Of a stretch of 64,000 bases of DNA, positions 11,059 to 61,169 are shown piece by piece. The notes beneath the pieces are model-generated. The model was not told the origin of the DNA and searched no databases. It worked only from the letters and a program-made list of their open reading frames with translations. How positions within the stretch are numbered: the first letter of the stretch is position 1; every line of letters starts with the position of its first letter. The stretch spans positions 1,318,471-1,382,470 of the forward strand of contig NZ_BMEM01000001.1 of the NCBI RefSeq assembly GCF_014636495.1. Direction: 5' to 3'. The translations under genes and the position numbers were made by a program. This DNA comes from Ornithinimicrobium tianjinense (GTDB lineage Bacteria > Actinomycetota > Actinomycetes > Actinomycetales > Dermatophilaceae).

Positions 11059-11077
11059 GCCGGCCGGGACAACGGGT

Positions 11078-12148: not shown

Positions 12149-12155
12149 GAAGGTC

Positions 12156-12161
12156 AGGGTA
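12156..12161 (-). promoter_or_regulatory. Leaderless promoter -10 of wecB
   Basis: Minus-strand TACCCT is followed by 7 nt and the GTG start of wecB. Confidence 0.55.
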
Positions 12162-12240
12162 TGTCGTCGCGGCTCCGCCGGCCGTCCCCGCCCGTGCGCC
12201 GTCCGCGCGTGCGCGCGCCGTCCGCGCGTGCGCGCGCCGG

Positions 12241-12246
12241 TAGGTT
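12241..12246 (+). promoter_or_regulatory. Leaderless promoter -10 of the GT4-GT2 gene
   Basis: TAGGTT is followed by 7 nt and ATG at 12254. The 80 bp upstream are very GC-rich and contain near-tandem copies of CGCCGTCCGCGCGTGCGCG. Confidence 0.55.
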
Positions 12247-12253
12247 GGGACGC

Positions 12254-14491
12254 ATGCGCGTGCTGGTGGTGACGACCTGGTTCCCCACCCCGGCCTCGCC
12301 GTCGACGGGGGTCTTCGTGGCGCGGGACGTCGCGGCGATCGCCGGTCGGCACGAGGTGAAGGTCCTGCACCTGTGCGCGCCCGCGTTGCTGGGCGAGGGG
12401 GACGAGGGGCGGAGGGACGAGCGGGGGTTCACGGTCGAGCGTGGGTTCACGGTCGAGCGGCTCCCGATGGACCCCCGTCGGCCCGATCACGTGGCGCGCG
12501 CGGCCCGGCGGGTCAGGACGCTGGTCGGTGACACCGACGTGCTCCACACGATGGCCGTCTCGGCGCTGCTGCCGATGGTCGGCTGGCGACCGGACGTGCC
12601 GTGGGTGCACACGGAGCACTGGTCCGGGCTGCTCGCCCCGCAGACGCTGACGCCGGCGCTGCGTGCGGCCCGGCCGGTGGTCCTGCGGATGCTGCGGCGG
12701 CCCGACGTCGTCGCCGTCGTCAGCGAGCACCTCGCCGCCGGCGTGCGCCGGGTCCGCACCGGCCCGGTGGTCGTGGTGCCGAACATCGTCGAGGGCTCCG
12801 GGCGCCCCTCCTCCCGGCGTGCCCCCGACGTGCCGCTCACGGACCGTGGTCCGCTCGAGATCGTGGCCGTCGGCGGGCTGATCGCCCGCAAGGACCCGTC
12901 CACCGCGGTGGACACCGTGGCCGAGCTGCGGCGGCGAGGTGTCGACGCGCGGCTGACCTGGGTCGGCGACGGGCCGTTGCGCGAAGCGACGGCCGACCAT
13001 GGCGAGGCGAGCGGCATACCTCTCACGCTCACGGGCCCGGTGCCGCCCGGTCGGGTGCAGGAGATCGTCGACCGCGCGGACCTCTTCCTGCTGCCGACGC
13101 GGGCGGAGACCTTCTGCGTCGCGGCAGCGGAGGCGCTGGCTGCGGGGCGCCCGGTCGTGGTGGGGGACAGCGGGGGGCCGCGGGACTTCGTGGCCGCGCC
13201 CAGCGGGAGGCTCGTGACCCCGGGCGCGCCGGCGCAGAGGTGGGCGGACGCGGTGGAGCGGGTGTGGGCCGACTGTGCTGACCTCAGCGCGGAGCAGATC
13301 GCGGCGCCTGTCGTCGAGGCCTACAGCGGGGAGGCCTACGCGGCGGGCCTCGACGAGGTCTACCGGTCGTTGAGCGGCGATGCTGGGCGAGGACCGGAGT
13401 CGCGTGGCCCGGGGGAGCCCCTCGTCGACGTGGTCATCGCCACGCACTCTGCGCAGCGGCAGACGGAGCGGGCGGTGCGGTCCGTCCTCGACGGGACGTC
13501 GGCGTCGGTGCCGGTCCGGGTCACCGTGGTGTGCCACGACCTGCCGGTCGAGGAGGTCGCGGCGAGCCTGTCGCAGGAGACCCTGGCCGACCGGCGGGTG
13601 CGGCTGCTGCACCATGCCGACGGGGTGGCGAGCCCGGCGGGGCCGTTCACGGCGGGGCTGGACGCCGCGACCGCGCCGTGGGTGAGCATCATGGGCAGCG
13701 ACGACCGGCTCGAGCCGGGCGCGGTCGAGGGGTGGCTGAGCGTGGCCCGCGAGACGGGGGCCGAGGTGGTCCTCACGCGCCTGGTGCTCGAGGGCACGGC
13801 CGTGGCGACCCCGCCGACGCGGATCGGGCGCAACCACGACCTCGACCTGGTGGCCGACCGGCTGGCCTACCGGAGCGCGCCCCTGGGCCTGCTGTCGCGC
13901 GCGGCGGTCGAGCGCAGCGGAGCCCGGCTGCTGCCCGGTGCCCAGACGGGGGAGGACGTGCCGTTCTCGACCCGGCTCTACGCGGAGGCGCGGGTCGCGC
14001 TCGCCGGTGGTGCGGCCTACCTCGTGGGGACGGACGCGGGGGACCGGACCACCTATGTCCCGAGGCCGATCCGCGACCAGCTGGTCTGCGTCGAGGCGAT
14101 CCTCGACGACCCGTGGTGGGGGCGGCGGCCGGCCGGGCAGCAGCGCGCGGTGGCGACCAAGCTCCTGCGGATCCACGTGTTCGGGGCGGTGCTGACGCGG
14201 ACCGATCCGCAGTGGTGGACGCCGGGGGAGCGCGCGGAGCTGGCCCGGATCACCCGGCGGCTGCTGGAGGAGGTGCCCGGGTGCGCCCGTCCGCTGAGCC
14301 TGGCCGACCACGACCTGATCGGCGCGATCTTCGATCCGGCGGTCTCCGCCCAGCGGCTGCTCGACCTCGCTGAGGCCAGACGGCGGCACGGGAGCCCGCG
14401 CACGCTCGTGCCCGCCGACCTCCGCGCGGCGCTGGACCCCGAGGCGCCGCTGCGGTTCATGGCCGCCTCGCTCGCCGCCACCCGCCGCTGA
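12254..14491 (+). CDS. Bifunctional glycosyltransferase, GT4 then GT2
   Basis: 745 residues with the two module types of the 5865-8297 protein in reverse order. Residues 1-375 are GT4-like: VVTTWFPTPASPSTGVFVAR at the start, VGGLIARKDPSTAV for donor binding, and LLPTRAETFCVAAAEALAAG, the E(x)7E catalytic segment. Residues about 390-745 are GT2-like: LVDVVIATHSAQRQ, SPAGPFTAGL and SIMGSDDRLEPGAV, nearly identical in layout to the other GT2 module. Starts with ATG 7 nt after TAGGTT, probably leaderless. A six-residue duplication (GFTVER twice) sits near residue 58. Divergent from wecB, so the two are likely part of the same glycan pathway. Confidence 0.85.
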   Translation: MRVLVVTTWFPTPASPSTGVFVARDVAAIAGRHEVKVLHLCAPALLGEGDEGRRDERGFTVERGFTVERLPMDPRRPDHVARAARRVRTLVGDTDVLHTMAVSALLPMVGWRPDVPWVHTEHWSGLLAPQTLTPALRAARPVVLRMLRRPDVVAVVSEHLAAGVRRVRTGPVVVVPNIVEGSGRPSSRRAPDVPLTDRGPLEIVAVGGLIARKDPSTAVDTVAELRRRGVDARLTWVGDGPLREATADHGEASGIPLTLTGPVPPGRVQEIVDRADLFLLPTRAETFCVAAAEALAAGRPVVVGDSGGPRDFVAAPSGRLVTPGAPAQRWADAVERVWADCADLSAEQIAAPVVEAYSGEAYAAGLDEVYRSLSGDAGRGPESRGPGEPLVDVVIATHSAQRQTERAVRSVLDGTSASVPVRVTVVCHDLPVEEVAASLSQETLADRRVRLLHHADGVASPAGPFTAGLDAATAPWVSIMGSDDRLEPGAVEGWLSVARETGAEVVLTRLVLEGTAVATPPTRIGRNHDLDLVADRLAYRSAPLGLLSRAAVERSGARLLPGAQTGEDVPFSTRLYAEARVALAGGAAYLVGTDAGDRTTYVPRPIRDQLVCVEAILDDPWWGRRPAGQQRAVATKLLRIHVFGAVLTRTDPQWWTPGERAELARITRRLLEEVPGCARPLSLADHDLIGAIFDPAVSAQRLLDLAEARRRHGSPRTLVPADLRAALDPEAPLRFMAASLAATRR

Positions 14492-14697: not shown

Positions 14698-15618
14698 TCA
14701 GAAGTGGGCGTCGAGCCAGGCCAGGAGATTTGCCTCGACCTCGTCGCGGTTGGTCTCGTTGAGGACCTCGTGGCGCGCGCCGGGCCAGACGCGGACGGTG
14801 ACGTCGCGCACCCCGGCCGCGAGCAGCAGGCCGGCGACCTCGACCGCGGCGGCCTGGCCACCGACCGGGTCGACCTCTCCGACCACGATGTGCACCGGAA
14901 GGTCGGACGGGGTCAGCGCCGCGGTCGAGGGGCGGTTGACCCGGCGCAGGCCCTGCAGCAGGTCGCGGTAGAAGGCGGCGGTCGCGGTCCCGCCTGACAG
15001 CTCGTCGGCCGCGTAGGCGTCGACCTGGGCGGCGTCGCGCGAGAGCCAGTCGAACTTCGTGCGCGCGGGCCGGAAGGGTCGGTTGTTCGGGCCGAGCACG
15101 AGGGCCTCCATGAGGCGGCTGCGCGCACGTGGACCGCGGACGCGCGCCTCGAGGGAAGCGAGCCGTTGCCCCACCGCGCCGAGCAGCCCCGGGTCACCCG
15201 CCGTGCCGGACAGGATCAGCCCGTCGATCAGCTCGCCGTGGCGGGCCGCGTAGGCGCGCGCGAGGAAGGAGCCCATGCTGTGCCCGAGCAGCACCACGGG
15301 CACCCCCGGGTGGGCGTCGCGCAGCTCGGCGGTCAGCGCCGCGAGGTCGTCCACCACCGCGTCGAAGCCGCCGTCGTCACCGAGGTGTCCGAGCTCGTCC
15401 GGTCCGCCGGCGGTGCGTCCGTGACCACGGTGGTCGGAGGCGTACACGGCATACCCCGAGGCGGACAGCCGCTCGCCCAGGTGGTCGTAGCGCGCAGCGT
15501 GCTCGACCATCCCGTGCGCGACCTGGACGACCGCGCGCGGGAGAGCCTCCGGAAGCCAGCGGTGGACGTGCAGGATGGTCCCGTCCGGGACCGCGTGGGT
15601 GAAGGTCGACGTCGACAT
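14698..15618 (-). CDS. Alpha/beta hydrolase, monoacylglycerol-lipase-like
   Basis: 306-residue serine hydrolase resembling monoacylglycerol lipase and lysophospholipase. Key parts: oxyanion block VVQVAHGMVEHAARYDHL, then SDHRGHGRT, nucleophile elbow VVLLGHSMGSFLAR (catalytic Ser), and the late Asp (GEVDPV) and His (PGARHEVLNE). No signal peptide is visible, so it should be cytoplasmic. ATG at 15618 follows minus-strand TACCCT by 7 nt, indicating a leaderless mRNA. It is divergent from the nucleotide-sugar dehydrogenase and may have no link to the glycan genes. Physiological substrate unknown. Confidence 0.88.
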   Translation of the reverse strand: MSTSTFTHAVPDGTILHVHRWLPEALPRAVVQVAHGMVEHAARYDHLGERLSASGYAVYASDHRGHGRTAGGPDELGHLGDDGGFDAVVDDLAALTAELRDAHPGVPVVLLGHSMGSFLARAYAARHGELIDGLILSGTAGDPGLLGAVGQRLASLEARVRGPRARSRLMEALVLGPNNRPFRPARTKFDWLSRDAAQVDAYAADELSGGTATAAFYRDLLQGLRRVNRPSTAALTPSDLPVHIVVGEVDPVGGQAAAVEVAGLLLAAGVRDVTVRVWPGARHEVLNETNRDEVEANLLAWLDAHF

Positions 15619-51375: not shown

Positions 51376-51450
51376 GGGCGATTGGCGCAGTGGTAGCGCG
51401 CTTCCTTGACACGGAAGAGGTCACTGGTTCAAACCCAGTATCGCCCACCA
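51376..51450 (+). tRNA. tRNA-Val (GAC), with encoded CCA; integration target
   Basis: Acceptor GGGCGAT pairs with ATCGCCC, anticodon loop CTTGACACG reads GAC, T arm CTGGTTCAAACCCAG. The CCA end is encoded. From the T arm to the CCA the sequence is duplicated at 61137-61161, so the 3' part now comes from the integrated element, which rebuilt an intact tRNA. Confidence 0.97.
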
Positions 51451-51451
51451 G
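51427..51451 (+). other. attL, left attachment site
   Basis: 25 bp starting GTTCAAACCCAGTATCGC and ending CCACCAG, identical to 61137-61161. It covers the T loop, acceptor strand and CCA of tRNA-Val. After one mismatch, AGAAA also matches at both ends. Confidence 0.92.
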
Positions 51452-51453
51452 TA

Positions 51454-51498
51454 GAAACCCCCTCTGACCAGGCAAGATGCCAGGGCAAAGGGGGTTTC
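51454..51498 (+). terminator. Hairpin after tRNA-Val supplied by the element
   Basis: GAAACCCCCT (51454-51463) and AGGGGGTTTC (51489-51498) form a perfect 10-bp stem around a 25-nt loop. It takes the place of the native terminator now stranded at 61170-61205. Confidence 0.7.
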
Positions 51499-51506
51499 TG
51501 TTTGCG

Positions 51507-51559
51507 CGTGCCCCAATCGTGCCCCGTTCGGCGTGGCGTGCCCCTAGCGTCGGGGCACG
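51507..51559. repeat. Cluster of CGTGCCCC octamers, left end
   Basis: CGTGCCCC occurs at 51507, 51518 and 51537 and in reverse at 51552. The first two are 11 bp apart (followed by AATC and GTTC). Likely arm-type sites of the element's integrase; similar pairs are found at the right end and at 56849-56867. Confidence 0.75.
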
Positions 51560-51646
51560 GCCGGGGTGTGGGTAGGGGCAGGACCTGGCGAACCGGGCCG
51601 CCCAATCGCCCCGGTGAGTCTCCCCTCACTCTTCATGGCGGCGGCC

Positions 51647-51652
51647 TACCCT
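51647..51652 (+). promoter_or_regulatory. Leaderless promoter -10 of the endonuclease gene
   Basis: TACCCT followed by 6 nt and ATG at 51659; no ribosome site is visible. Confidence 0.6.
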
Positions 51653-51658
51653 CGGGGC

Positions 51659-52561
51659 ATGACGGACGCGCCGGAGCCTATCGACCCGCAGGACGATCCA
51701 CAGGGAGAGGGCACGGTAGACATCGCTGGGGAGGTCCGGGAACTCTCGACCGACGGCTGGCCAAGCGGGTACGTCTATGGAGCGACTCGGTACGCAGACG
51801 TGATCCTGAAGAACTCCTTTCCGGATCGCTTCACCGACCTGACGGGCGCGCTGGCAGGCTTTCACCCGACGCTGGATGAACTGCGTGCTGGCGGCGGGGG
51901 CCGGACCGTGTTCGTCGCCCGCTTCGATGCCTCGCTGGCCGTCATGCACGCTGGTTCCGTCTGGGGCAAGCAGAACATCACCATCGACAAGTCGGTAGGC
52001 CTGGACGGCACCCCGCTGCGAACTACGCGCACTCGCGGTCATGAGATCGACATGTTCGGCAAAGGCTCCGATGAGCAGCCTCTGCCAGGCATCGCGGTCG
52101 AGATGGAGTGGAACAACAAGGACCCGTTCTTCGACCGGGACCTGATCAACTTCCAGGCCCTCCACCACGAGGGAGCCATATCCGTGGGTGTCATCGTCAC
52201 GCGCGGCCCTGGCCTCCAGGGCCTGATCGGCCCCACCATCCGCAGCAAGGACGGTGGTCTGAAGTACGGTCAGAGCACGACACACTGGGGGAAGCTCGTG
52301 CCCAAGGTCAATCTGGGTGGCGGGGGCGAGTGCCCTCTTCTTCTCATCGGCATCGAACCTGAGCGCATCACCGGGATCGAGTTGGTGCGGAAGGTCGCGG
52401 AGGCGTTGGCCGAAGCGGCCGACTTCAAGGCGAACTGGCGCGACACCCACGACCGATGGACGGACGCCAAGCCGGTCCACGACGCCATGAGAACGAAGGC
52501 AGAAGCCATGATGCCGCCGGTCAAGGAGGCCAAGAGTCTCGATGAAGGGGACGGCTCGTAG
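51659..52561 (+). CDS. BglII/BstYI-like type II restriction endonuclease
   Basis: 300 residues. The core resembles the BglII/BstYI family, which cuts AGATCT or RGATCY: a beta-rich region with GHEIDMFGKG (Asp131), then GIAVEMEWNNKDPFFDRDL (143-162), with Glu148, Glu150 and Lys154 as probable catalytic residues, and SVGVIVTRGPGL. The methyltransferase gene starts 55 bp downstream, and two AGATCT sites lie between them. ATG at 51659 is 6 nt after a TACCCT -10. In the element it could exclude other phages or plasmids. Specificity is inferred only from family likeness. Confidence 0.75.
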   Translation: MTDAPEPIDPQDDPQGEGTVDIAGEVRELSTDGWPSGYVYGATRYADVILKNSFPDRFTDLTGALAGFHPTLDELRAGGGGRTVFVARFDASLAVMHAGSVWGKQNITIDKSVGLDGTPLRTTRTRGHEIDMFGKGSDEQPLPGIAVEMEWNNKDPFFDRDLINFQALHHEGAISVGVIVTRGPGLQGLIGPTIRSKDGGLKYGQSTTHWGKLVPKVNLGGGGECPLLLIGIEPERITGIELVRKVAEALAEAADFKANWRDTHDRWTDAKPVHDAMRTKAEAMMPPVKEAKSLDEGDGS

Positions 52562-52571
52562 AGACACGCCG

Positions 52572-52600
52572 AAGTAGATCTTCGGGAGTAAGATCTACTT
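52572..52600. promoter_or_regulatory. Inverted repeat with two AGATCT sites before the methyltransferase
   Basis: AAGTAGATCTT (52572-52582) and AAGATCTACTT (52590-52600) form a perfect 11-bp inverted repeat with a 7-nt spacer. Each arm contains AGATCT. It covers the -35 region of the methyltransferase promoter, so it is a candidate operator sensitive to methylation or bound by the methyltransferase's own HTH. Confidence 0.75.
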
Positions 52601-52604
52601 TCGC

Positions 52605-52610
52605 TAGGCT
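52605..52610 (+). promoter_or_regulatory. Leaderless promoter -10 of the methyltransferase gene
   Basis: TAGGCT followed by 6 nt and ATG at 52617. TAAGAT at 52589-52594, inside the inverted repeat, is an alternative -10. Confidence 0.55.
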
Positions 52611-52616
52611 GCTCCC

Positions 52617-53534
52617 ATGAGCGCCCCCGCCCTACGTGCGAACGACCTTATCTCACCACTCCCAACCGTCGATGGCGGCTTCAAGACGATCCTGGCCGAT
52701 CCGCCCTGGCGCTTCGCGAACCGCACGGGCAAGGTGGCGCCCGAGCACCGCAGGTTGGACCGGTACAGCACGATGGACCTGGAGGCCATCAAGGCACTGG
52801 AGGTCGAGCAGGTGGCGGCCAAGAACGCCCACCTGTATCTGTGGGTGCCGAACGCCTTGCTTCCCGACGGCTTGGCCGTGATGGAGGCGTGGGGGTTCCG
52901 CTACATCTCCAACCTCGTCTGGGCCAAGCGACGTAAGGACGGCGGGCCGGACGGGCGAGGCGTCGGGTTCTACTTCCGCAACACCACCGAGCTCATTCTG
53001 TTTGGTGTTCGCGGGTCCATGCGCACTCTTCAGCCAGCCCGTTCGCAGGTCAACATCATCGAGACGCGCAAGCGAGAGCACTCCCGCAAGCCGGACGAGC
53101 AGTACGACCTGATCGAGGCTTGCTCCCCCGGTCCTCATCTCGAACTCTTTGCGCGCCATGCTAGAGAGGGTTGGACCGTCTGGGGTGATGAGAGCACAGA
53201 AGCCGAAGTGCGCGGAAGAGTGCACCGAGGGTACGCTGGCGGGCCGATCCTCGCCCCTGTTATGGAGCCCCATGCTCGCCTCGCGAAGGGCACCGAGGTG
53301 CGCCTGGCCAAGGACCTGCGCGATCTCTATGAGGCAGGGGGGACGATCCGGGGGCTTGCCAAGGAGACGGGCTACTCGATAGGCCGCGTTCGCAGGCTCC
53401 TCGAACTTGCAGGTACCCAGATCCGAAGCCGTGGCGCGCTGAAGATTCCCCCGCCGGAAACGGGGTGGTCCGAACCTCCCAGGCCGACGCCGCAGGAGCA
53501 ACCGCGAGGCACCGTAAGGAGCCCGGCCCCGTGA
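52617..53534 (+). CDS. MT-A70-family adenine methyltransferase fused to HTH
   Basis: 305 residues. Residues 20-205 are an MT-A70/MunI-type N6-adenine methyltransferase: catalytic DPPW at 28-31 (FKTILADPPWRFANRT), AHLYLWVPNALLPDGL, WGFRYISNLVWAKR and ELILFGVRGSMRTL. Residues 220-275 form a separate helix-turn-helix (KGTEVRLAKDLRDLYEAGGT, then IRGLAKETGYSIGRVRRLLE) like small actinobacterial DNA-binding proteins. It probably protects sites of the adjacent endonuclease; the HTH may repress its own promoter at the AGATCT inverted repeat. Overlaps the next small gene by GTGA. Confidence 0.85.
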   Translation: MSAPALRANDLISPLPTVDGGFKTILADPPWRFANRTGKVAPEHRRLDRYSTMDLEAIKALEVEQVAAKNAHLYLWVPNALLPDGLAVMEAWGFRYISNLVWAKRRKDGGPDGRGVGFYFRNTTELILFGVRGSMRTLQPARSQVNIIETRKREHSRKPDEQYDLIEACSPGPHLELFARHAREGWTVWGDESTEAEVRGRVHRGYAGGPILAPVMEPHARLAKGTEVRLAKDLRDLYEAGGTIRGLAKETGYSIGRVRRLLELAGTQIRSRGALKIPPPETGWSEPPRPTPQEQPRGTVRSPAP

Positions 53535-53752
53535 CCGAGGAGCGGCAGCCTGCCTCGTGGTGGCTGCACAAGGCCCACGCCCGCGTCACAGACTGGGAGC
53601 GGCGAGGGGGTGACTACGCGGTGTGGGCCAGGAGTGACGCCAAGATCGTGCAGGAGCACCGGCCCGTGCCGTTCGAAACCGGCGCGCCCTGTCAGGAGTG
53701 CGGGAAGGCGTGGCCGTGCGGCATGTTCAGAGCCGTCCTCGCGTCCGATTGA
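53531..53752 (+). CDS. Small zinc-ribbon-like protein, unknown
   Basis: 73 residues starting with GTG that overlaps the methyltransferase stop. It has ASWWLHKAHARVTDWERRGG in the first half and a cysteine cluster at the C-terminus (CQECGKAWPCG) that could bind zinc. I recognise no family. Coupling to the methyltransferase suggests it belongs to the restriction-modification unit, perhaps as a controller, but nothing shows this directly. Confidence 0.6.
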   Translation: MTEERQPASWWLHKAHARVTDWERRGGDYAVWARSDAKIVQEHRPVPFETGAPCQECGKAWPCGMFRAVLASD

Positions 53753-53830
53753 TCCGTGGCGTAGCCGCTGGCCGGTGTGCCGGTGCCCGGCTGGTCCGCC
53801 AGGCCGTCGAGCGGCCGCTCAGACATAGCG

Positions 53831-53872
53831 AGCGCCCCGCCCCACGGCTTCCACTGCCGGGGGCGGGGCGCT
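53831..53872. terminator. Bidirectional hairpin between the element's two operons
   Basis: AGCGCCCCGCCCC (53831-53843) and GGGGCGGGGCGCT (53860-53872) form a perfect 13-bp stem with a 16-nt loop. It lies between the rightward restriction-modification genes and the leftward terminase operon. The rest of 53753-53956 holds no gene I can support. Confidence 0.75.
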
Positions 53873-53956
53873 GGGCGCGGCTGGCCTAGTAGGCGGTCGG
53901 CCGCCCGCGCTGGGTGCGCTCACGGCCGGGGCCAGAACCCCAGCCGCCGCGCTGGT

Positions 53957-54625
53957 CTACGAGACGGGGGCGGGCGCCTCCCGGTCGATCAGGTCCGGCT
54001 TGCGGATGGTGTTGGGCACGGCCAGGGCCAGCGCCAGCGCCATGACTAGGTCGCCGTGGCCCTCGCCCTCGCGGCGTGGAGACTCGTACTGCGTGCGGCC
54101 GCTGGGGGTGATCTTCTGGCGGAACGCCAGCATCTCCCGCTGGAGCACATCCACCAGCGGGCCGGGCGCCACCCGCAGGCGGCCGCTCTGGAGGGTGGTC
54201 TGGACCGCGCTGATGAGGTCGGCCTTCGGCAGGTTCCAGCCGTTGCCGTGCTCGCCGCCCGTGATGGTGACGCCGATGGGCTGGTGCGCCCCGGCCAGGC
54301 GGCCGTCGCGCCAGGCCTCGCGGAACATGTCCATCACGGCGGTGCCCACCCCGGTGCGGTCCACGACGAGCAGCGCGTCGGTGGACAGCGGCGGGCGGCG
54401 GGTCAGGCGGCCGACGTCGTTGACGATGTCGGGGTAGGCGGTGCCCAGCGGCCAGCGCTGCATGTGCACCACGTGGTACTCCTCGACGGGGCGGACCATG
54501 CGCCCGGCCAGCCGGTGCAAGCCCTCCACGGTGAGCGTGCCGGGCGGCACGAGCAGCCGCTCGACCACCACCAGCGCGGTGAAGTCCTGCTGCCCGAGGT
54601 CCAGGCCGATCGTGAAGCTTCCCAT
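53957..54625 (-). CDS. Large terminase nuclease domain as a separate protein
   Basis: 222 residues with the RNase H-like fold of TerL nuclease domains. Three acidic residues line up with the metal site: Asp9 in FTIGLDLGQQDFTALVV, Asp89 in ALLVVDRTGVGTAV and Asp193 in GHGDLVMALALAL. It would cut concatemeric DNA during packaging. The ATG at 54625 comes 1 nt after the stop of the terminase ATPase gene and has its own AAGGAG 7 nt upstream, so the split looks genuine rather than a frameshift. Last gene of the leftward operon. Confidence 0.82.
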   Translation of the reverse strand: MGSFTIGLDLGQQDFTALVVVERLLVPPGTLTVEGLHRLAGRMVRPVEEYHVVHMQRWPLGTAYPDIVNDVGRLTRRPPLSTDALLVVDRTGVGTAVMDMFREAWRDGRLAGAHQPIGVTITGGEHGNGWNLPKADLISAVQTTLQSGRLRVAPGPLVDVLQREMLAFRQKITPSGRTQYESPRREGEGHGDLVMALALALAVPNTIRKPDLIDREAPAPVS

Positions 54626-54626
54626 C

Positions 54627-55403
54627 TCAGTCTCCTTGCGTGGGGGTGCCGAAGAGGGGCGGCACGGCTGCCCCGGCCGCCACGGCGGCGCGGACGTCGT
54701 CGCTGCTGAACAGTTGGGCGTCGCTGTCCTCGAAGCGGCACTCGTAGTCGCTAGCGAAGGTAAACCGGGGCACGCTGGCGCGGACCTCGGTTATGCGCTG
54801 CTCGTCGTACTGGTCGCTGGCGTAGACGTCGACAAGGTGGTGCTCCCAGGCGCCGGGCACCGCGTCGGCTCCCTCGTGCAACTCCCAGAACCAGCCGCGC
54901 GCACCCCACGGCGTGGACAGCGCCCACACTGCGCCGGTGCTGCCGACCATCGGCAGGACGGAGGCGAAGATGTCGTCCTCCACGCGGGCGGCCTCGTCGA
55001 GGATGAGCAGCGCCACCCCGGCGAACCCACGGGTGGTGGACTCGCTGCCGGGCAGGCTGAGCACCCGACTGCCGTTGGCGAACTCCAGAGTGCTGGCCGA
55101 CTCGCGTGCAGTCTCCACGGGCCGCCCGGCCGCCCGGTAGAGGCTGCGCACGCGGACCAGGAACTCGTCGGACTGCCGCTGGCTGGGGCTGATCACCAGC
55201 ACCAGCGACTCGGGCCGGTAGAGCGCGGTGTGCAGCGCCTTGATAGACGTCGTCGTGGTCTTGCCCACCTGGCGGGCGCAGCGCACCAGCACCCGCCGTG
55301 AGGAGGACCTGAGCAGGCTCGACTGCCACGCCTCGCTGTGGAAGCCGATGCCACCCGCGAACGCCACTGGGTCGAGGGCCAGGGCCAGGTCACGCGCCAG
55401 CAC
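54627..55403 (-). CDS. Large terminase ATPase domain as a separate protein
   Basis: 258 residues. The packaging-motor ATPase has an adenine-binding start (GIGFHSEAWQSSLL), Walker A RCARQVGKTTT (41-51), Walker B ALLILDEAA with Asp136-Glu137 and the coupling-type motif VWALSTPWGARGWFW. It ends before the nuclease domain, which is encoded by the next gene. GTG at 55403 overlaps the TerS-like gene by 14 nt. Together the two products total 480 residues, the size of a normal TerL. Confidence 0.86.
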   Translation of the reverse strand: MLARDLALALDPVAFAGGIGFHSEAWQSSLLRSSSRRVLVRCARQVGKTTTTSIKALHTALYRPESLVLVISPSQRQSDEFLVRVRSLYRAAGRPVETARESASTLEFANGSRVLSLPGSESTTRGFAGVALLILDEAARVEDDIFASVLPMVGSTGAVWALSTPWGARGWFWELHEGADAVPGAWEHHLVDVYASDQYDEQRITEVRASVPRFTFASDYECRFEDSDAQLFSSDDVRAAVAAGAAVPPLFGTPTQGD

Positions 55404-55929
55404 GGTCGGTCCTCTCGCCGGCGACGACCGTGGGGGCGGCCGGTGCGTCCAGCGCCAGCAACCGGGCGGCCACGGCGCGGGCGGCCTCGGGGTGGGGGGC
55501 CAGGGCCTCCAGCATGGCCTGCCGGGTGGCGAGCCAGGCGGGGTCCGCGCTGACGTTGAGCACCTGGACGGTGTTGCGCTCGTCCAGCTCGCCGGTGATC
55601 TTGGCCAGCAGCGCGGCGGTCTGGCGCATCTCGCTGGACGCCTGAAGCACGAGGTTGGCCTTGCCCTCACGCTCGGCAGCGATCAGCACCCGCTCGACGC
55701 GGCTGAACAGGTGCTCAAGACGCCCGAGGGCCGTGGTGGCCCCGTTGGCCACCTGCTCGGTCACGTGTGCCTGAACGGCCGCCGAGAGGTGGTTGGCCTT
55801 GTGCCGGGCTACGGCATCCTTGTGGAGGTCCCAGCGGCGGCCGATGGCACGGTTGGCCATGCCAGCCACCAGCGCCTCGTCTATGGCCTCCCGCTCGGGG
55901 TGGGTGCAGATGGTGCACGCCAGCGCCAT
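55390..55929 (-). CDS. Probable small terminase subunit or DNA-binding adaptor
   Basis: 179 residues directly upstream of TerL. The N-terminus has CTICTHPEREAIDEALVAGM followed by NRAIGRRWDLHKDAVARHKA, a helix-turn-helix like those of small terminase subunits, preceded by a CxxC-H pair. The middle (residues 60-130) is helical and could form the ring; the C-terminus is Ala-rich. ATG overlaps the stop of a 47-residue ORF (TGATG). TerS assignment rests mainly on position and the HTH. Confidence 0.68.
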   Translation of the reverse strand: MALACTICTHPEREAIDEALVAGMANRAIGRRWDLHKDAVARHKANHLSAAVQAHVTEQVANGATTALGRLEHLFSRVERVLIAAEREGKANLVLQASSEMRQTAALLAKITGELDERNTVQVLNVSADPAWLATRQAMLEALAPHPEAARAVAARLLALDAPAAPTVVAGERTDRAGA

Positions 55930-56072
55930 CAGCGCTCACCTCCCGTGGGGGTGGGGGTGGGGTGGGCGGCCACGGCGGCCTCGGCCCGCTCCAGGGCGGC
56001 CAGCAGCGAGCGCCAGCCGTCGTGATCCGGCAGGGCCGGGGCGGCGGTGGCCAGCGTCTGTGCCTCAGGCAT
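55929..56072 (-). CDS. 47-residue small protein, unknown
   Basis: Short ORF (starting MPEAQTLATAAPALPDHDGW, ending in a Pro-Thr-rich tail) that bridges two genes: its ATG overlaps the stop of the 234-residue gene by 8 nt, and its TGA overlaps the TerS-like ATG. The overlaps at both ends support it as a real translated unit in the operon. No family recognised. Confidence 0.5.
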   Translation of the reverse strand: MPEAQTLATAAPALPDHDGWRSLLAALERAEAAVAAHPTPTPTGGER

Positions 56073-56769
56073 CCTCAGCGCCCCCGTCCAGGTAGGCGGC
56101 CCGCTCGTGCAGGGCGGCCACGGCGGTCGCCTCGGCCCGCTGCATCAGCAGCGACAGCGCCCGGTCGTCGTAGGCGCTGGGCTGGCCCTCGCGCTCGTCC
56201 TGGGTGATGGTGCCCGCCTGGTGGAGCAGGTTGCCAGCGTGCTCGTCCAGCCAGCCCTCCGTGAGGGTGACGTGCTCGAAGGCGTCCAGGGCGGCGGCGG
56301 TGCTGTCGGCCTTCTTGGCCTCGGGCGGCATGGTGGCCTGGGCCAGCCGCATGTAGGTCGCGCCGTCCAGCACCGGGCGGGCCACCCGCACGTACTCGGC
56401 GGCCTGGGCCGTGGCCCCGCTGGTGACGAGGTTCTGGATCAGCGCGGCGGCCTCCAGGCTGCCCAGCCCGGCCAGGTCCGACTGCGCCGCCCCCTGCCAG
56501 TAGCGGCGCCGCTCGAGGTCCTGCCCGCTGGGGTTGTCCACGTAGCGGGCACGCTCGGCACGGTCGGCCTGGATGCCCCGCCTGAAGTCCTCCCTCGCGG
56601 CGGCGATGGCAGCCTCCGCGGTGGCCCTGGCCTGGGTGAGCGCCTGGTCCCGCTCGGCGGGGTACAGGGCGGTGTCACGGTCGGTCCGGCGGACCGCCGC
56701 GTGGTAGTCGTTGAGCGCCTTCCGCATGCGCTGGACGGCGGCCTTCTGGCGCGAGAGCAGTTCGGTCAT
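56065..56769 (-). CDS. Helical protein of the element, unknown
   Basis: 234 residues, mostly charged amphipathic helix: LSRQKAAVQRMRKALNDYHA at the start, then AERDQALTQARATAEAAIAA and DFRRGIQADRAERARYV, consistent with a coiled coil in the first 90 residues. The second half is helical and less charged. I recognise no family; position before terS would suit a scaffold-like or packaging-related protein, but that is a guess. ATG has AAGGAGAC upstream at good spacing. Confidence 0.65.
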   Translation of the reverse strand: MTELLSRQKAAVQRMRKALNDYHAAVRRTDRDTALYPAERDQALTQARATAEAAIAAAREDFRRGIQADRAERARYVDNPSGQDLERRRYWQGAAQSDLAGLGSLEAAALIQNLVTSGATAQAAEYVRVARPVLDGATYMRLAQATMPPEAKKADSTAAALDAFEHVTLTEGWLDEHAGNLLHQAGTITQDEREGQPSAYDDRALSLLMQRAEATAVAALHERAAYLDGGAEDA

Positions 56770-56782
56770 GGTGGGGTCTCCT

Positions 56783-57304
56783 TCAGGAGTTCTTGCGGGG
56801 GTGGACCGCCCACGGCAGGGCGCCGCGAGCGGGGATCTGTAGGGGATTGGGGCACGATCGGGGCACGCCAGCCGCGCCGGATGGCGTGGTGGGCCGATGA
56901 CCTGCGGGTCCCATCGCTCCGGGCGCTGGGGCAATACCAGTAGCGGGCGCAGACTCTGAAGCTTCGGCGTCGTTGAACGGGCCGCGCCCTCCCTCTCGCC
57001 GGCAGATGGTGACGTCGGTGGGGGAGTAGTCATTGCCCGGCCACACGGCCCGGCCGGTGATGTGGGCTACTGCCACCGCCCGGCTGAGTGCGACGGCCTC
57101 GGGCCAGCCGGGTGCAGGGGGAGTCGCTGCCCGCCCTCCGTGCTGGTGCTCCGGTGCGAGCGCCCCGCCCCCCATCAAGAGGGGGGCGGGTGCGTAATCG
57201 CTAGGCGGCGTAATCGGCGTAATCGGTCGCGTAATTGCCTGACCTGCGGCGATGGGCGGGACCGTAATCGGCTGACGGGTGCGTGGTCGGGGTGTCGCGG
57301 TCAT
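56783..57304 (-). CDS. Pro-rich protein coupled to the ATPase gene, unknown
   Basis: 173 residues, rich in Pro and Ala (for example TRPITPITPPSDYAPAP), with one more ordered stretch WPEAVALSRAVAVAHITGRA. ATG overlaps the ATPase stop as ATGA, which argues for translation. Its 5' part contains five of the seven CGTAATCG iteron-like repeats, so its sequence may be constrained more by DNA function than by protein function. Its 3' end contains the paired CGTGCCCC sites. Confidence 0.45.
   Translation of the reverse strand: MTATPRPRTRQPITVPPIAAGQAITRPITPITPPSDYAPAPLLMGGGALAPEHQHGGRAATPPAPGWPEAVALSRAVAVAHITGRAVWPGNDYSPTDVTICRREGGRGPFNDAEASESAPATGIAPAPGAMGPAGHRPTTPSGAAGVPRSCPNPLQIPARGALPWAVHPRKNS
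56849..56867. repeat. Pair of CGTGCCCC octamers in mid-element
   Basis: GGGGCACG at 56849 and 56860, 11 bp apart (the reverse complement of CGTGCCCC). Same spacing and flanks as the pairs at both ends of the element. Confidence 0.7.
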
Positions 57305-57328
57305 GGTGCGTAATCGCCCCCGTAATCG
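57193..57328. repeat. Iteron-like array of CGTAATCG
   Basis: CGTAATCG starts at 57193, 57209, 57218, 57263, 57309 and 57321, with the variant CGTAATTG at 57230: seven copies in 136 bp, all in one direction. The array spans the junction of the replication-type ATPase gene and the next gene. Such arrays often mark plasmid or phage origins; this is a candidate origin of the excised element. Confidence 0.75.
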
Positions 57329-58650
57329 CCCTCGGCGTCGTGAGACGGGTGCAGCCACACGGCCGGTTGGCCGCCTCGGCTGCCACCCTTCGACCCCTCC
57401 CGGAAGGTGAGCCGCCCGGCCGTCACCAACTTGTCCAGCCTGCGGCGTGCCCGCTGCGTCTGAGCATCGGTCGGCTTGGCCGTGTCCTCCACGTTGGCGG
57501 CGGCAGACTTCGCCGTGAGGCCGTCCGTGCCTGCGGCCAGGGCCAGCGCTACGAGGTCGGTCTCGTGGTAGACGGTCGTCAGCCCGGCCGTGTGGTCGTG
57601 CAGCAGCCGGTACGGGCCGACCGTCTCTGCGGGCTGCTTCAGGTGGTGCATGCCGACCACCGGGTCACCGGCCGTTCCCTCCAGCAGCACCACCGATCCC
57701 GCCCCGGCCGTAATCCACGTGGAGCCGTAGAGGTCCGCCAGGGCTTTCGGTGCGCCGCCGTTGGCGTTCTTTTTGATGGTGTGGTGCAGTTCCAGCACCT
57801 CAACTCCGGCCGCGATGCACATCTGCCGGGCACGGTTGTAGCCCGCGCCGACCTCGTCCGACGACAGCCCCAGCGCCGCGTCCTTGACGCTGTCCACCAC
57901 GACGGTGTCGGCGGCGGCCTGCCGGGCCAGCGCCAGCAGCGTCTCGGGCTGGGCGGCCATGTCGGCCAGGGGCGGGCCGGGCCAGAACACCAGCCGCTCG
58001 TCCAGTACCTCGCGGCTGAAGCTTCCGAGTGTGCGAGCCAGCGCACGGGCGATCTGCTGCGGGCGGTCCATGGCCAGGTACAGCACCCGGCTGCTGGTAG
58101 GCCGCACCGTGAGGCCGAGCACCGTGCCACCATCCAGGCGGGCGGCCACCACCTGCCCGGCGAGGGTGGTCTTGCCGACGCCCGGCGTGCCCGCCAGCAC
58201 CAACGACTCGCCCTCGGCCCAGAGCACCTGATCGCCGTCACCCCACACGGCCGGGGTGTCGGGGGGCAGGTCCAGGAGGAACGATCCACCCGGCGCCAGC
58301 CTGTCTGACGCTCCAGCGGCTGCCTCAGTAGTGGCGGCTGCCTGCTCAGCCTGGAACATCTCGAGCGCCCGCTGACGGGCCATCAGGCGGCGGTACTCCA
58401 GCACCATCTCCACCTGCTCGGTGGGGCCGTCCACGCTCTGCAGAGCCTGGCGCAGGCGTCGGGCCTCGGGGCTGGTGCCACCGAACTCGCGGGCGGCCTG
58501 CTCCAAGTCGCGGCGCTGGGCGTCGAGGTCCCGGCTGGACTCCAGCAGCCCACGCATCAGCCGGAACTCGCCGAGCTGGAAGGTGTCGTCGCCGAGCACC
58601 GCCCGCGCCTCGGGGCTGTCCAGGCTGTAGAAGGTGGAGTCCTCCGTCAT
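57301..58650 (-). CDS. RecA-fold ATPase, RepA/AAA_25-like replication protein
   Basis: 449 residues. An N-terminal helical part (1-110) precedes a RecA-type ATPase: Walker A LAGTPGVGKTTLAGQV (152-167), Walker B DTVVVDSVKD (Asp253), and ELHHTIKKNANGG as a sensor loop. The C-terminus (about 375-440) looks like a winged helix (TDAQTQRARRRLDKLVTAGR). This is the layout of RepA-like replicative helicases of plasmids and of phage helicase/loaders. CGTAATCG repeats at its 3' end suggest it acts on that site. Overlaps genes on both sides. Confidence 0.8.
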   Translation of the reverse strand: MTEDSTFYSLDSPEARAVLGDDTFQLGEFRLMRGLLESSRDLDAQRRDLEQAAREFGGTSPEARRLRQALQSVDGPTEQVEMVLEYRRLMARQRALEMFQAEQAAATTEAAAGASDRLAPGGSFLLDLPPDTPAVWGDGDQVLWAEGESLVLAGTPGVGKTTLAGQVVAARLDGGTVLGLTVRPTSSRVLYLAMDRPQQIARALARTLGSFSREVLDERLVFWPGPPLADMAAQPETLLALARQAAADTVVVDSVKDAALGLSSDEVGAGYNRARQMCIAAGVEVLELHHTIKKNANGGAPKALADLYGSTWITAGAGSVVLLEGTAGDPVVGMHHLKQPAETVGPYRLLHDHTAGLTTVYHETDLVALALAAGTDGLTAKSAAANVEDTAKPTDAQTQRARRRLDKLVTAGRLTFREGSKGGSRGGQPAVWLHPSHDAEGDYGGDYAP

Positions 58651-59045
58651 AGGGTGCACGCGCCTTCCAGCGGGTGCCGGTTGCCGCACAGACCACACGG
58701 GTCGGCGCAGCCGTCGTCGGCGGGGTGGTGGGCGCCGCAGCAGCGGCACGGCTCACCCCAGAGCGCGGCGGCGACCTCGTCCAGGTGCTGCCGGGCCGTC
58801 AGGTCCACGACGTCCTGGGAGCAGCCCTCCAGGTCGCTGGTGCCCACCGTGTAGACGCCGACCCGGCGGGCCAGTCCGTTGACGAGGTCGTTGCACTCGG
58901 CGCAGCCGGGGCAGTCCCAGTGGCTCTCGCTCAAGTCCGCAGCAGCCGAGCTGGAAGCGCGAGCGGCCGTAGCCTGAGGGCGGTGCGTCTCCTTCGCGTC
59001 GCCCCGGTGGTGGTCTCCGCTGCCGGGGCGACGTTCGGCGCTCAC
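58647..59045 (-). CDS. Cysteine-rich zinc-binding protein, unknown
   Basis: 132 residues. Three Cys clusters in the C-terminal 90 residues: WDCPGCAECND, EPCRCCGAHH and DPCGLCGNRHP, each able to bind zinc. The N-terminal 40 residues look disordered. GTG at 59045 overlaps the HTH gene stop (GTGA) and the 3' end overlaps the ATPase start. Cys-rich proteins of this size beside phage replication genes are often DNA- or primase-associated, but no family is recognised. Confidence 0.65.
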   Translation of the reverse strand: MSAERRPGSGDHHRGDAKETHRPQATAARASSSAAADLSESHWDCPGCAECNDLVNGLARRVGVYTVGTSDLEGCSQDVVDLTARQHLDEVAAALWGEPCRCCGAHHPADDGCADPCGLCGNRHPLEGACTL

Positions 59046-59269
59046 CGCGCACCTCCTACGGACTGCACCGGCTGGAACAGCGCAGCCACGTCAGCCTCTT
59101 CGACGCGGATCAGTCGGGCGCCCATCCGGTACGCCGGGAGGCTGCCGTCTGTGATGCGGCGGCGCAGCGTGTCCACGCTGACGCCGTACCTGTCGGCGGC
59201 GGCCTCCAGCGAGATGCGCTTCGAGCGCGCCAGCGGTGCCTCCGGGGCGGCCCGGCGCGGGCGGCTCAC
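59042..59269 (-). CDS. xis: Excisionase-like HTH protein
   Basis: 75 residues with a MerR-type excisionase HTH: SLEAAADRYGVSVDTLRRRI and then DGSLPAYRMGARLIRVEEAD, the classic winged-helix layout. It would direct the integrase toward excision and might also repress. GTG at 59269 overlaps the stop of the preceding gene (GTGA); GTG at 59272 is an alternative. It is in the leftward operon, not beside int, so excision may be tied to replication and packaging expression. Confidence 0.82.
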   Translation of the reverse strand: MSRPRRAAPEAPLARSKRISLEAAADRYGVSVDTLRRRITDGSLPAYRMGARLIRVEEADVAALFQPVQSVGGAR

Positions 59270-59637
59270 CACGCCCTCCCGCTGGCGAGCAGGGACGCCA
59301 GGTGGTTGCGCTGGTCCAGCGTGAGCAGGCCAGCGGCCAGCGTCTCGTTGATGTCGCGCTCCAGCAGCGCGGCGGCCAGGGCGCTGCGGGCCTGGACGAA
59401 CTCGGGGTCTGACTCCGGGCGGGAACGGGACAGCGCCGCCACACGGGCGCGGTGCCGAAAGACTTCGGTTGAGCGGTGCATAAGCAACTCCACGTACTCG
59501 TGGAGTGGCTCCCAGCGCTGCCGCCCGTGCGGGACTGGTGATCCTCCGGCTGCATCCTCCCCGCCGCTCTGGCGGGGTGCCACCTTGACCTCATGTGCGA
59601 GATGGACCCGGGTGGATGCTCCCGGCCACTGCCTCAT
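59266..59637 (-). CDS. First gene of the leftward operon, unknown
   Basis: 123 residues. The first 45 are basic and look disordered; residues 45-120 are helical (HEYVELLMHRSTEVFRHRAR, then FVQARSALAAALLERDINET). No family recognised. ATG at 59637 lies about 33 nt after the operon's predicted start site. Its stop overlaps the excisionase-like gene. Being first, it could be a regulator of the operon, but nothing in the sequence proves it. Confidence 0.55.
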   Translation of the reverse strand: MRQWPGASTRVHLAHEVKVAPRQSGGEDAAGGSPVPHGRQRWEPLHEYVELLMHRSTEVFRHRARVAALSRSRPESDPEFVQARSALAAALLERDINETLAAGLLTLDQRNHLASLLASGRAW

Positions 59638-59676
59638 GGCCCCCGGCGCCTGGCCGGTGCATTACGACTGAGCCTC

Positions 59677-59705
59677 AAGTTAGGTGCTTCTCTGGCAAGG
59701 TGCAA
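59677..59705 (-). promoter_or_regulatory. Promoter of the leftward element operon
   Basis: On the minus strand TTGCAC (59700-59705), 17-bp spacer and TAACTT (59677-59682). It lies about 40 nt before the first gene and is the only clear sigma-70-type promoter in this gap. Confidence 0.65.
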
Positions 59706-59716
59706 GCAAAGTTTGC
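59706..59716. promoter_or_regulatory. Possible operator beside the leftward promoter
   Basis: GCAAAGTTTGC is a perfect 11-bp palindrome directly upstream of the -35 box. Its position fits a repressor or activator site for the operon. Confidence 0.5.
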
Positions 59717-59774
59717 AGAGTTATCTATCTCCGTCATAGGAGTGGGTTTCCCAGCCATTCCTGATAGCGCGAGA

Positions 59775-59805
59775 CGGCCCGCTGAGCGGTTTGCTCAGCG
59801 GGCCG
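59775..59805 (-). terminator. Terminator of the integrase gene
   Basis: CGGCCCGCTGAGC (59775-59787) and GCTCAGCGGGCCG (59793-59805) form a perfect 13-bp stem with a 5-nt loop, 22 bp after the int stop on the minus strand. No U-tract, as is common in this genome. It insulates int from the leftward promoter. Confidence 0.8.
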
Positions 59806-59826
59806 GGGGTGCTCGGCGGGGGAGTG

Positions 59827-60969
59827 CTACTCGCCGCTTGAGAGGCGGCCGAGCGCCGCAGCGATGGCAGCGTCGCGTCCCTTGGCGGTGTGCTGGTAGC
59901 GCATGGCCATGCCAGGGCTGCTGTGTCCCAGGCGGCCCATCAGCTCGGCGGTGGTGGCGCCCACCTGAGCGGCGAGCACCGCACCCGTGTGGCGCAGGTC
60001 GTGCCAGCGCAGGTCCGGCCGACCGATGGCCCGCCGTGCCGGGTAGAAGACGCCGTAGAGGGTGCTGGGCGCCAGGTGGCTGACGCCGTCGGCGGCCGGG
60101 AAGAGCAGACCCTCGCGGCCACCCGCGATGCTGATGGCCATGTGTTCGCGCAGCGCGTCCACCACCTGCGGCGGCATGGCAACGTCACGCACGCCAGCGT
60201 CACTCTTCGGGGTGCCGACGATGAACTCACCGCCCACCCGCGTGACACCCCGGCGCACCTTGACCACCCCACGCGCCAGGTCTATGTCCTTGCGGCGCAA
60301 CTCGGTCAACTCCCCGAAGCGCAGCCCGCACCACGCGGCTAGAAGCGTCATGGCGCGGTAGCGCTCGGGCATGGCCTCCACGAGAGCCGTCAACTCGGCG
60401 GTGCTGAGCGGTTCGATCTTGTGCACGCGCTTGGCGTTGCTGGCGCCACGGATGTGGCAGGGGTTCGCGTCGGCCAGCCCATCCTGCACCGCCGTCGTGA
60501 AGATGGTGCGGAGCAGGCTGTAGGCGTGGCTGCGCATGGTCGGGGTGCTCTTGTCCAGCCCGGCGTACCACGCACGCACCACATCGGGGGTGATGCTCTT
60601 CGGGCGTCGGTCGCCCAGCGCGGGGAGAATGTGCTGGTCCAGAAGCTTCCGGTAGTGGGCGCGGCTGCGGGGCTTCAGGTCCCGCTCGGCGAGCCAGGTC
60701 TCGGCGTATGCGGCGAGCGTGTCGTGCGCCTTGATCCGCGCCTGCGTCTCGGTGGTGGGCGGCTGCCACTCCTCGTCCAGGTACTCGGCGCGGCGCACCG
60801 ACTCTTCCATGTCCGACAGCCACTTTCGAGCGTTCCGCATGGTGTCCCACGTCTTGCTGTAGCGCTTCCCGTCCGGCCCGCGGAAGCGAGCCTGCGGCTT
60901 GCCCGAGGGCAGCATGCGGACGGACCCGGAGCCGTAGTCGCGGCGCTTGGGCTGGGTGGTGCTGGTCAT
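59827..60969 (-). CDS. int: Tyrosine integrase
   Basis: 380 residues, phage-type tyrosine recombinase. Residues 1-60 are the arm-binding part (DYGSGSVRMLPSGKPQARFR), 65-165 the SAM-like core-binding domain and 190-375 the catalytic domain with Arg in AAWCGLRFGELTELRRKDID, His-x-x-Arg in LRWHDLRHTGAVLAAQ and nucleophile Tyr in GMAMRYQHTAKGRD. ATG at 60969 has AAGGAG upstream. It ends the element 170 bp from attR, as expected for a tRNA-targeting integrase. All catalytic residues are present, so it should be functional. Confidence 0.95.
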   Translation of the reverse strand: MTSTTQPKRRDYGSGSVRMLPSGKPQARFRGPDGKRYSKTWDTMRNARKWLSDMEESVRRAEYLDEEWQPPTTETQARIKAHDTLAAYAETWLAERDLKPRSRAHYRKLLDQHILPALGDRRPKSITPDVVRAWYAGLDKSTPTMRSHAYSLLRTIFTTAVQDGLADANPCHIRGASNAKRVHKIEPLSTAELTALVEAMPERYRAMTLLAAWCGLRFGELTELRRKDIDLARGVVKVRRGVTRVGGEFIVGTPKSDAGVRDVAMPPQVVDALREHMAISIAGGREGLLFPAADGVSHLAPSTLYGVFYPARRAIGRPDLRWHDLRHTGAVLAAQVGATTAELMGRLGHSSPGMAMRYQHTAKGRDAAIAAALGRLSSGE

Positions 60970-60995
60970 GGCGGCTCCTTGCGGTGGGCTGGGCG

Positions 60996-61046
60996 CGTGC
61001 CCCGTTCGTGCCCCAATCAAAGCACACCCGTGCCCCAACGTGCCCA
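60996..61046. repeat. Cluster of CGTGCCCC octamers, right end
   Basis: CGTGCCCC at 60996, 61007 and 61029, with the variant CGTGCCCA at 61039. The first two are 11 bp apart, followed by GTTC and AATC, the reverse order of the left end. They lie between int and attR, where arm-type sites are expected. Confidence 0.75.
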
Positions 61047-61136
61047 CTTCTGCGTCATATCCGTGGGGCGCATAAGCGCAGGTCAGAGAGCGTCTATGCA
61101 GGTGATCGGCCTGTCAGGTTAGCAGCCACGGCGCTA

Positions 61137-61161
61137 GTTCAAACCCAGTATCGCCCACCAG
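61137..61161 (+). other. attR, right attachment site
   Basis: 25 bp identical to 51427-51451, the displaced original 3' end of tRNA-Val. It is not a functional tRNA, as the 5' part is missing. Confidence 0.92.
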
Positions 61162-61169
61162 CAGAAAAT

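Follow-up and report, generated by a model that had tools for sequence, protein, structure and literature searches.

The window analysed here, a 64,000-nucleotide stretch of the Ornithinimicrobium tianjinense contig NZ_BMEM01000001.1, carries at a tRNA-Val gene an integrated element of 9,710 bp that encodes an integrase, a RecA-like ATPase, a large terminase (TerL) divided between two genes and a predicted type II restriction-modification pair. We consider it moderately probable that this element is a phage satellite, integrated at the tRNA gene and belonging to a family of tRNA elements of about 9 kb that lack a portal; the present copy would have lost its scaffold and capsid genes, and a phage-type restriction pair lies between its TerL and the attachment (att) site. 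The anatomy of the element, its att sites, the intact motifs of its proteins, its family membership and its nesting within a capsid-bearing clade are directly evident from the sequence.

Gene content and ends of the element

The element is bounded by exact 25-bp direct repeats, the left of which overlaps the 3' end of the intact tRNA-Val gene; the alignment of 51424-51457 with 61134-61167 extends over 34 bp with a 94% match, at a spacing of 9710. The tRNA end was also compared with 200 random 100-bp stretches of the window, where no chance match exceeded 10 bp; the att cores match over 25 bp. The features of the element are as follows (aa, amino acids; HTH, helix-turn-helix; Xis, excisionase; ORF, open reading frame; TerS, small terminase).

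51376..51450, plus strand: tRNA-Val (gac), the integration target, intact (ARAGORN)
51427..51451, plus strand: attL core, 25 bp exact, direct repeat overlapping the tRNA-Val 3' end
51659..52561, plus strand: BglII-like type II restriction endonuclease, 300 aa (PF09195, 2.5e-22)
52574..52598, no strand: inverted repeat GTAGATCTT-N7-AAGATCTAC, between the endonuclease and methylase genes
52617..53534, plus strand: MT-A70-family type II methyltransferase with a C-terminal HTH, 305 aa (PF05063, 3.6e-29; PF19575, 4.9e-11; PADLOC MTase_II, 7.2e-121)
53465..53752, plus strand: small ORF, 95 aa, no significant family match
53957..54625, minus strand: TerL nuclease half, a separate gene, 222 aa (phrog_27743, 4.7e-34; PF17289, 7.4e-5, just above the cut-off)
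54627..55403, minus strand: TerL ATPase half, a separate gene, 258 aa (phrog_7579, 1.7e-50; PF03237, 4.3e-13)
55390..55929, minus strand: TerS-like HTH protein, 179 aa, overlapping the TerL ATPase start (synteny and homology in relatives)
56065..56769, minus strand: p234, predicted all-helical, low-confidence model, no family match below E 0.08
57301..58650, minus strand: RecA-like replicative ATPase/helicase, 449 aa (PF13481, 2.9e-19; phrog_6012, 1.5e-108)
58647..59045, minus strand: p132, Cys-rich, no family match
59042..59272, minus strand: Xis-like HTH_17 protein, 76 aa (PF12728, 7.7e-8; phrog_66, 6.5e-7)
59266..59637, minus strand: p123, no match above the cut-off
59827..60969, minus strand: tyrosine integrase, 380 aa (PF00589, 2.8e-18; phrog_1, 3e-70)
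61137..61161, plus strand: attR core, 25 bp exact, direct repeat followed by the post-tRNA-Val sequence of other genus members

Read from attR, the minus-strand genes thus run from the integrase through p123, the Xis-like protein, p132, the RecA-like ATPase, p234, the TerS-like protein and the TerL ATPase to the TerL nuclease, and are followed on the plus strand by the small ORF, the methylase and, outermost and adjoining attL, the endonuclease. Homologues of the RecA-like ATPase in mycobacteriophages are mostly annotated as helicase or primase/helicase, and p234 had no match in phages. An earlier note on this DNA, made from the letters and their open reading frames, had proposed the tRNA-Val repeats, the integrase beside attR, the Xis-like protein, the RecA-fold ATPase, both halves of TerL and the endonuclease-methyltransferase pair, and all of these are confirmed by the matches listed above, as is its claim that virion genes are absent: among the 14 ORFs scanned against Pfam and PHROGs, none matched a portal, capsid, tail or lysis family. 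RepSA is a mark of actinomycete integrative and conjugative elements; an assignment to that class was rejected, with no conjugation or RepSA-type match among the same 14 ORFs.

The two TerL genes are nearly contiguous, the stop of the ATPase gene ending 1 nt before the start of the nuclease gene. They are not one broken gene, nor a frameshift artefact, since they are separate genes in the relatives too. In the alignments, R44, G47, K48, D136, E137, S163 and T164 of the ATPase half and D9, D89 and D192 of the nuclease half are invariant, which we take to be the Walker A, Walker B and motif III residues and the RNase H-type site. The ATPase profile matches solved terminases (4zni, 4.8e-13; Gp17, 4.2e-9); the nuclease half, searched against phages, gave no match.

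The tRNA-Gly/Cys/Val stretch was matched in 31 of 31 same-genus genomes, and at 7 of 29 other same-genus tRNA-Val loci the downstream sequence matches the right side of the window beyond the core over at least 50 bp. In one of these seven, genome G014, the gene for a homologue (75% over 189 aa) of the galactosidase that neighbours the element on the right in the window lies less than 1 kb from tRNA-Val, so that no such element is present at this site. Five same-genus genomes (G005, G006, G008, G011 and G022) have a second att-like copy of the same tRNA-Val 15-31 kb away, which suggests that this gene is a general integration site, or hotspot, with other elements. In four same-genus genomes with another element in tRNA-Val, no TerL homologue of this kind was found, three of the stretches examined ending before the second att copy.

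Capsid-bearing relatives and distribution of the family

The closest intact relatives, L017, L018 and L150, are tRNA elements from three other families of the same order, with the gene order of the window (Xis, ATPase, TerS, TerL ATPase, TerL nuclease) and then genes for a scaffold-like protein and an HK97 capsid. One of them, L018 (genome G512), lies between perfect 57-bp repeats of a tRNA-Tyr end (4275-4331 and 13271-13327, spacing 8,996 bp) and encodes, in order, the integrase, an HTH_17 protein, p247, an AAA_25 ATPase, the TerS-like protein and then the following.

9989-10738: TerL ATPase
10739-11425: TerL nuclease
11418-12005: scaffold-like protein (phrog_15003, E 0.0017)
12150-13001: capsid protein (PF05065, 2.4e-34)

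L150 (G1145) has a perfect 43-bp repeat with tRNA-Pro (15007-15049 and 6196-6238, spacing 8,811 bp) and the same order, plus one accessory gene between the capsid gene and att, the very slot that the restriction pair occupies in the window; in L017 (G321) the integrase lies beside tRNA-Val (cac), the order is again the same, and the contig ends inside the capsid gene. The three capsid proteins are 66-69% identical and occupy the same position. No portal, protease or tail gene was recognised in the three loci, where some of the proteins were scanned with hidden Markov models and the others identified through their homologues. In L018 and L150, whose ends are known, every ORF large enough to encode a portal has been assigned; the far end of L017 is cut off.

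In a maximum-likelihood tree of the TerL ATPase half (99 rows), the window joins L007, a locus of Ornithinimicrobium cerasi, with support of 100/100; addition of L017 gives 99/90 and addition of L018 and L150 again 100/100. L018 and L150 alone form a group at 99/70, and three more distant loci, L010, L152 and L154, fall elsewhere. The 100/100 TerL clade together with the shared gene order places the window element in the family of split-TerL tRNA satellites represented by L017, L018 and L150. Judged from these sequences, the capsid-less state of the window element is probably, and most simply, explained by loss inside a clade whose members had a capsid but no portal: the homology and shared position of the three capsids favour one loss in the lineage of the window over separate gains. 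The search for a trace of the scaffold or capsid in the window element with tblastn gave none (best E 0.18). As the nearest intact relatives show no portal, protease or tail and two of them are bounded at 8.8-9.0 kb, the ancestor of the clade was probably already small. In the window copy, the capsid module appears to have been traded for a restriction pair.

With the TerL ATPase half as query, and in genome samples that overlap, relatives proved to be few. The earlier note had suggested a search of related genomes for the same gene set in this tRNA-Val, and no other copy came to light: one of 31 same-genus genomes has this TerL, namely the window's own. In the family, 5 of 186 genomes match at E 1e-3, with the own genome and G181 below 1e-50; in the order, 4 of 396 at 1e-20 (own, G321, G512 and G394); in the class, the own genome only among 394; and in the phylum, 5 of 396 at 1e-40, the own included. 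The families of G512 (60 genomes) and G321 (47) each yielded only the respective genome itself, and the family of G205 one of 398, G1145. With the single TerL protein, a scan of genome contigs returned a single locus, L007 (74%), and a scan of viral contigs none; scans with the alignment of the satellite-clade TerL and with a single capsid also returned none. The element family is real but sparse.

Satellite, remnant or prophage derivative

By analogy with known families, the cycle of such a satellite would begin when a helper phage infects the host cell, whereupon the integrase and Xis would excise the element and the RecA-like ATPase would support its replication. The TerS-like protein would select the element DNA, which the two-part TerL would pump through the helper's portal into a helper capsid, the helper also supplying tail and lysis; the restriction pair would attack unmodified DNA of competing phages.

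The serious rival, to which we assign a smaller but real likelihood, is that the element is a decaying remnant, a satellite whose capsid genes were deleted or replaced and which is now immobile, with the restriction pair a passenger kept for host defence. Nesting of the window inside the capsid-bearing clade is in line with this reading, and so are the failure to find another copy in the 31 genus genomes and the condition of the closest relative, L007, in which a deletion joins the TerL halves, a stop interrupts the ATPase stretch and the integrase is in pieces. Such decay is not what the window copy displays: the reading frames of its integrase, Xis, ATPase, TerS-like protein and two TerL halves are uninterrupted, the TerL catalytic residues are intact and the att cores are identical, and the lack of any scaffold or capsid trace points to a clean exchange rather than drift.

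A number of observations weigh against the satellite interpretation that we prefer. That the capsid was lost while the motor escaped decay is a judgement based on one intact copy, and L007, whose contig has no capsid homologue, is the nearest relative and visibly decayed, so that the capsid absence may be part of that decay. Within the genus, as noted, only the window's own genome has this TerL. The window integrase is at the att end opposite the tRNA, whereas those of L017, L018 and L150 lie beside it, and is only 27-29% identical to them; the difference in side and sequence indicates that the integration module was exchanged. The host genome contains no PF04860 portal and no PF05065 capsid, these being the only two families sought (control matches were obtained in 4 of 14 genomes for each), a result that fits an external helper and an inert element equally.

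The TerS-like protein belongs to the same set of difficulties. In phages MMP7, MMP17 and Riverbug its homologue immediately precedes TerL, as it does in most loci where a homologue was found by sequence. The protein itself has no family match and its label rests on synteny: the AlphaFold model has an HTH followed by long helices (pLDDT 85, pTM 0.43), comparison of the model with the PDB by Foldseek gave no significant fold match, and the best hits of the profile among solved chains, at E 0.035, are HTH regulators. Moreover, the depositors of Riverbug named as TerS the gene that follows TerL, and an HTH gene after TerL in L010 matches the TerS family phrog_57 (2.3e-7), among several HTH and excisionase matches. 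Given these other candidates and the lack of a fold match, the TerS name is not proven.

Derivation from a full-length prophage by deletion of the portal, tail and lysis genes, the alternative that the earlier note had set beside a satellite, is disfavoured, and we regard it as improbable. Among viral TerL loci, of which 80 were kept out of 101 relatives found, TerL is split in 48, fused in 27 and undecided in 5. Six ORFs of at least 400 aa downstream of split TerL were tested, and proved to be three portals (L021, L031 and L033), one FtsK-like protein (L036) and two tape-measure-like proteins (on plasmids L103 and L104). That portals follow split TerL in L021, L031 and L033, accounting for three of the four large downstream ORFs in viral contigs, agrees with a prophage origin and is one more point against a satellite. 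The three nearest intact relatives of the window, however, show no portal, protease or tail; the two that are bounded, at 8.8-9.0 kb, are similar in size to the window element rather than longer, L017 being cut. The earlier note had held that relatives with the same genes next to portal and capsid genes in one longer prophage would make the element a deletion derivative. The capsid half of that picture was found, in the form of a scaffold-like gene and an HK97 capsid gene after TerL; the portal and the long prophage were not, which supports a satellite over a reduced prophage.

Least probable is a restriction-modification island that only uses phage integration genes, with the packaging genes as inert baggage: the restriction pair does lie beside the tRNA, its GC is lower and tRNA-Val appears to be a general integration site, with second att-like copies in five same-genus genomes, but the packaging block is the larger part, is conserved and also occurs in relatives that showed no restriction pair.

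Split TerL was also considered as a hallmark of satellites and rejected, being common in metagenomic viral contigs and followed by portals in three of them. It is found on small plasmids as well. Two from Salinibacter ruber, L103 (pSR14, 14.9 kb) and L104 (pSR11, 11.2 kb, with an annotated P4-family primase), carry a gene in the TerS position, split TerL, a tape-measure-like gene and ParA, and look like plasmid-borne phage satellites; a 16.3-kb plasmid of Streptomyces virginiae (L105) encodes an integrase, a primase, a gene in the TerS position and TerL as two adjacent annotated genes. A literature search found no paper on split TerL in satellites.

Beyond the satellite reading of the window itself, we tentatively raise the somewhat doubtful possibility that "motor-only" satellites are a recurrent state, with a complete two-protein terminase of their own and a TerS that selects their DNA, yet neither portal nor capsid, the foreign motor docking on helper portals and the freed space holding defence cargo. 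Four TerL lineages fit the capsid-less layout: the window, L010 from the same family, L152 and L154, the last three being contig pieces that lack demonstrated ends and were scanned in part. L010 (G181; 43% TerL identity) encodes an integrase, HTH protein, ATPase, TerS-like protein and split TerL, and neither a capsid nor a portal was recognised in the four genes scanned downstream. L154 and L152 come from other classes of the phylum: behind the split TerL of L154 lie a DUF5131 gene and gyrase-like host genes, and behind that of L152 toxin-antitoxin-like genes (the gyrase-like and toxin-antitoxin-like labels were read from the sequence); no capsid was recognised in the part of their ORFs that was scanned. 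No usable att repeat was found in L010 or L151, or in one comparison of L154. Not every relative is poor in capsid genes: in L153, also from the phylum, split TerL is followed by what reads as a head protease gene. Two features of these loci may be mentioned separately, namely a second integrase fragment (L010:104-681), which may be a remnant or belong to a tandem element and lies at the far end of the G181 contig, and the DUF5131 gene with a neighbour lacking a Pfam match in the post-TerL slot of L154 (7869-9832), possibly defence cargo.

Known satellites, the restriction pair and further loci

The earlier note took the presence of TerL to go beyond the model of phage-inducible chromosomal islands (PICIs). 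This was overstated, inasmuch as capsid-forming PICIs (cf-PICIs) are described as carrying both TerS and TerL (PMC10690885) and some candidate mycobacterial PICIs as carrying terminase (PMC10654092). Like cf-PICIs, the window element, a probable satellite, is integrated and carries TerL, here as two genes and with a putative TerS assigned by synteny only; according to the account in PMC10690885, cf-PICIs also encode a capsid, protease, portal, connectors and HNH protein, none of which was found in the window element. An integrase, att repeats and a size below about 20 kb, as expected of a PICI, are all present (9,710 bp with exact att cores), and so are the Xis-like regulator and the RecA-like replication protein, TerS again resting on synteny.

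The mycobacterial candidates, among which phiRv1 and phiRv2 are included, have an integrase and capsid and, in some cases, helicase, terminase and scaffold genes (PMC10654092). They resemble the window element in being small, with a tyrosine integrase in tRNA genes (or a serine integrase elsewhere). They are defined there by the major capsid gene, and the combination of integrase and major capsid is absent from the window and present in L017, L018 and L150 as far as the capsid is concerned; the two-gene TerL and the restriction pair of the window are not mentioned for them in the passages of PMC10654092 consulted. The Streptomyces satellites MulchRoom and MiniFlayer, which carry terminase, portal and capsid genes, are likewise actinobacterial with terminase genes of their own, but unlike the window element they are described as having a portal, capsid, scaffold and head-tail adapter and as parasitizing virulent phages (PMC10690885). 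P4-like satellites carry defence hotspots (PMC9122126) and thus share with the window defence cargo in a variable slot; P4 is packaged by the terminase of P2 (PMC10690885), and its gene set is unlike that of the window. Small actinobacterial elements below 15 kb have also been suspected to be satellites (PMC10023795). Capsid-bearing actinobacterial satellites and TerL-carrying cf-PICIs are, then, already described. In the accounts given in the cited papers, satellites either use the packaging machine of the helper or bring capsid, portal and motor together; with a portal-less family whose two-protein motor is complete, it would become possible to test directly how compatible the motors and portals of unrelated viruses are. 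The window element also points to small actinobacterial satellites that would escape searches built on capsid genes.

Among phage records, the L018 capsid is closest (33% identity) to those of 12 Mycolicibacterium aichiense "phages" of 10.9-11.1 kb (OR387110-OR387121). The two examined, WillG and Alyssa1, list a "terminase" of 97-134 aa, an integrase, a capsid, a tape measure and connectors, and no portal or lysis gene is listed in their annotation; the WillG gene before the capsid weakly matches the L017 scaffold (30%, E 6e-4). In these two records the small size is like that of the window element, and the serine integrase, tape measure and head-tail connectors are unlike it. The records L102 and L141 (OR387121 and OR387110), deposited as phages, may be satellites. 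Literature searches found no paper on M. aichiense, nor on phiRv1 as a phage satellite.

The adjoining endonuclease (PF09195) and methylase (PF05063) genes form a predicted type II restriction-modification pair. Of 24 endonuclease homologues in viral contigs, 23 have a methylase homologue in the flank, 22 of them within 250 bp, and the two genes are therefore a standing phage-borne pair. The restriction region has a GC content of 0.659 and the TerL-to-Xis block one of 0.728; comparison of the endonuclease with solved structures gave no match. The inverted repeat between the two genes holds both AGATCT sites of the element, the only two present. The spaced pattern GTAGATCTT-N7-AAGATCTAC, which was chosen after being seen, occurs once in the window and in none of 100 shuffles; AGATCT by itself shows no enrichment (8 against 5.24 expected). 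Any statement on the site specificity of the pair, or on its self-control through the repeat, would be a guess; the repeat could be a terminator (fold z -2.68).

Three viral contigs share parts with these elements. A stretch of a 35.5-kb contig, L168, has in common with the window a helicase (44%) and the restriction pair (endonuclease 53%, methylase 82% in its main piece), and is a possible donor type. A 7.7-kb contig, L012, has a helicase 55% identical to that of the window and a similar chassis with a different terminase; its other genes, with labels read from the sequence, are primase-, HNH-, TerS-, TerL- and nucleotidyltransferase-like, of other types. In the 13.5-kb contig L156, two tandem blocks each consist of a replication-initiator-like gene, an HTH gene and an HK97 capsid gene, the capsids being 56% and 53% identical to that of L018, and the second block is followed by a TerS-like gene (the initiator and TerS labels were read from the sequence).

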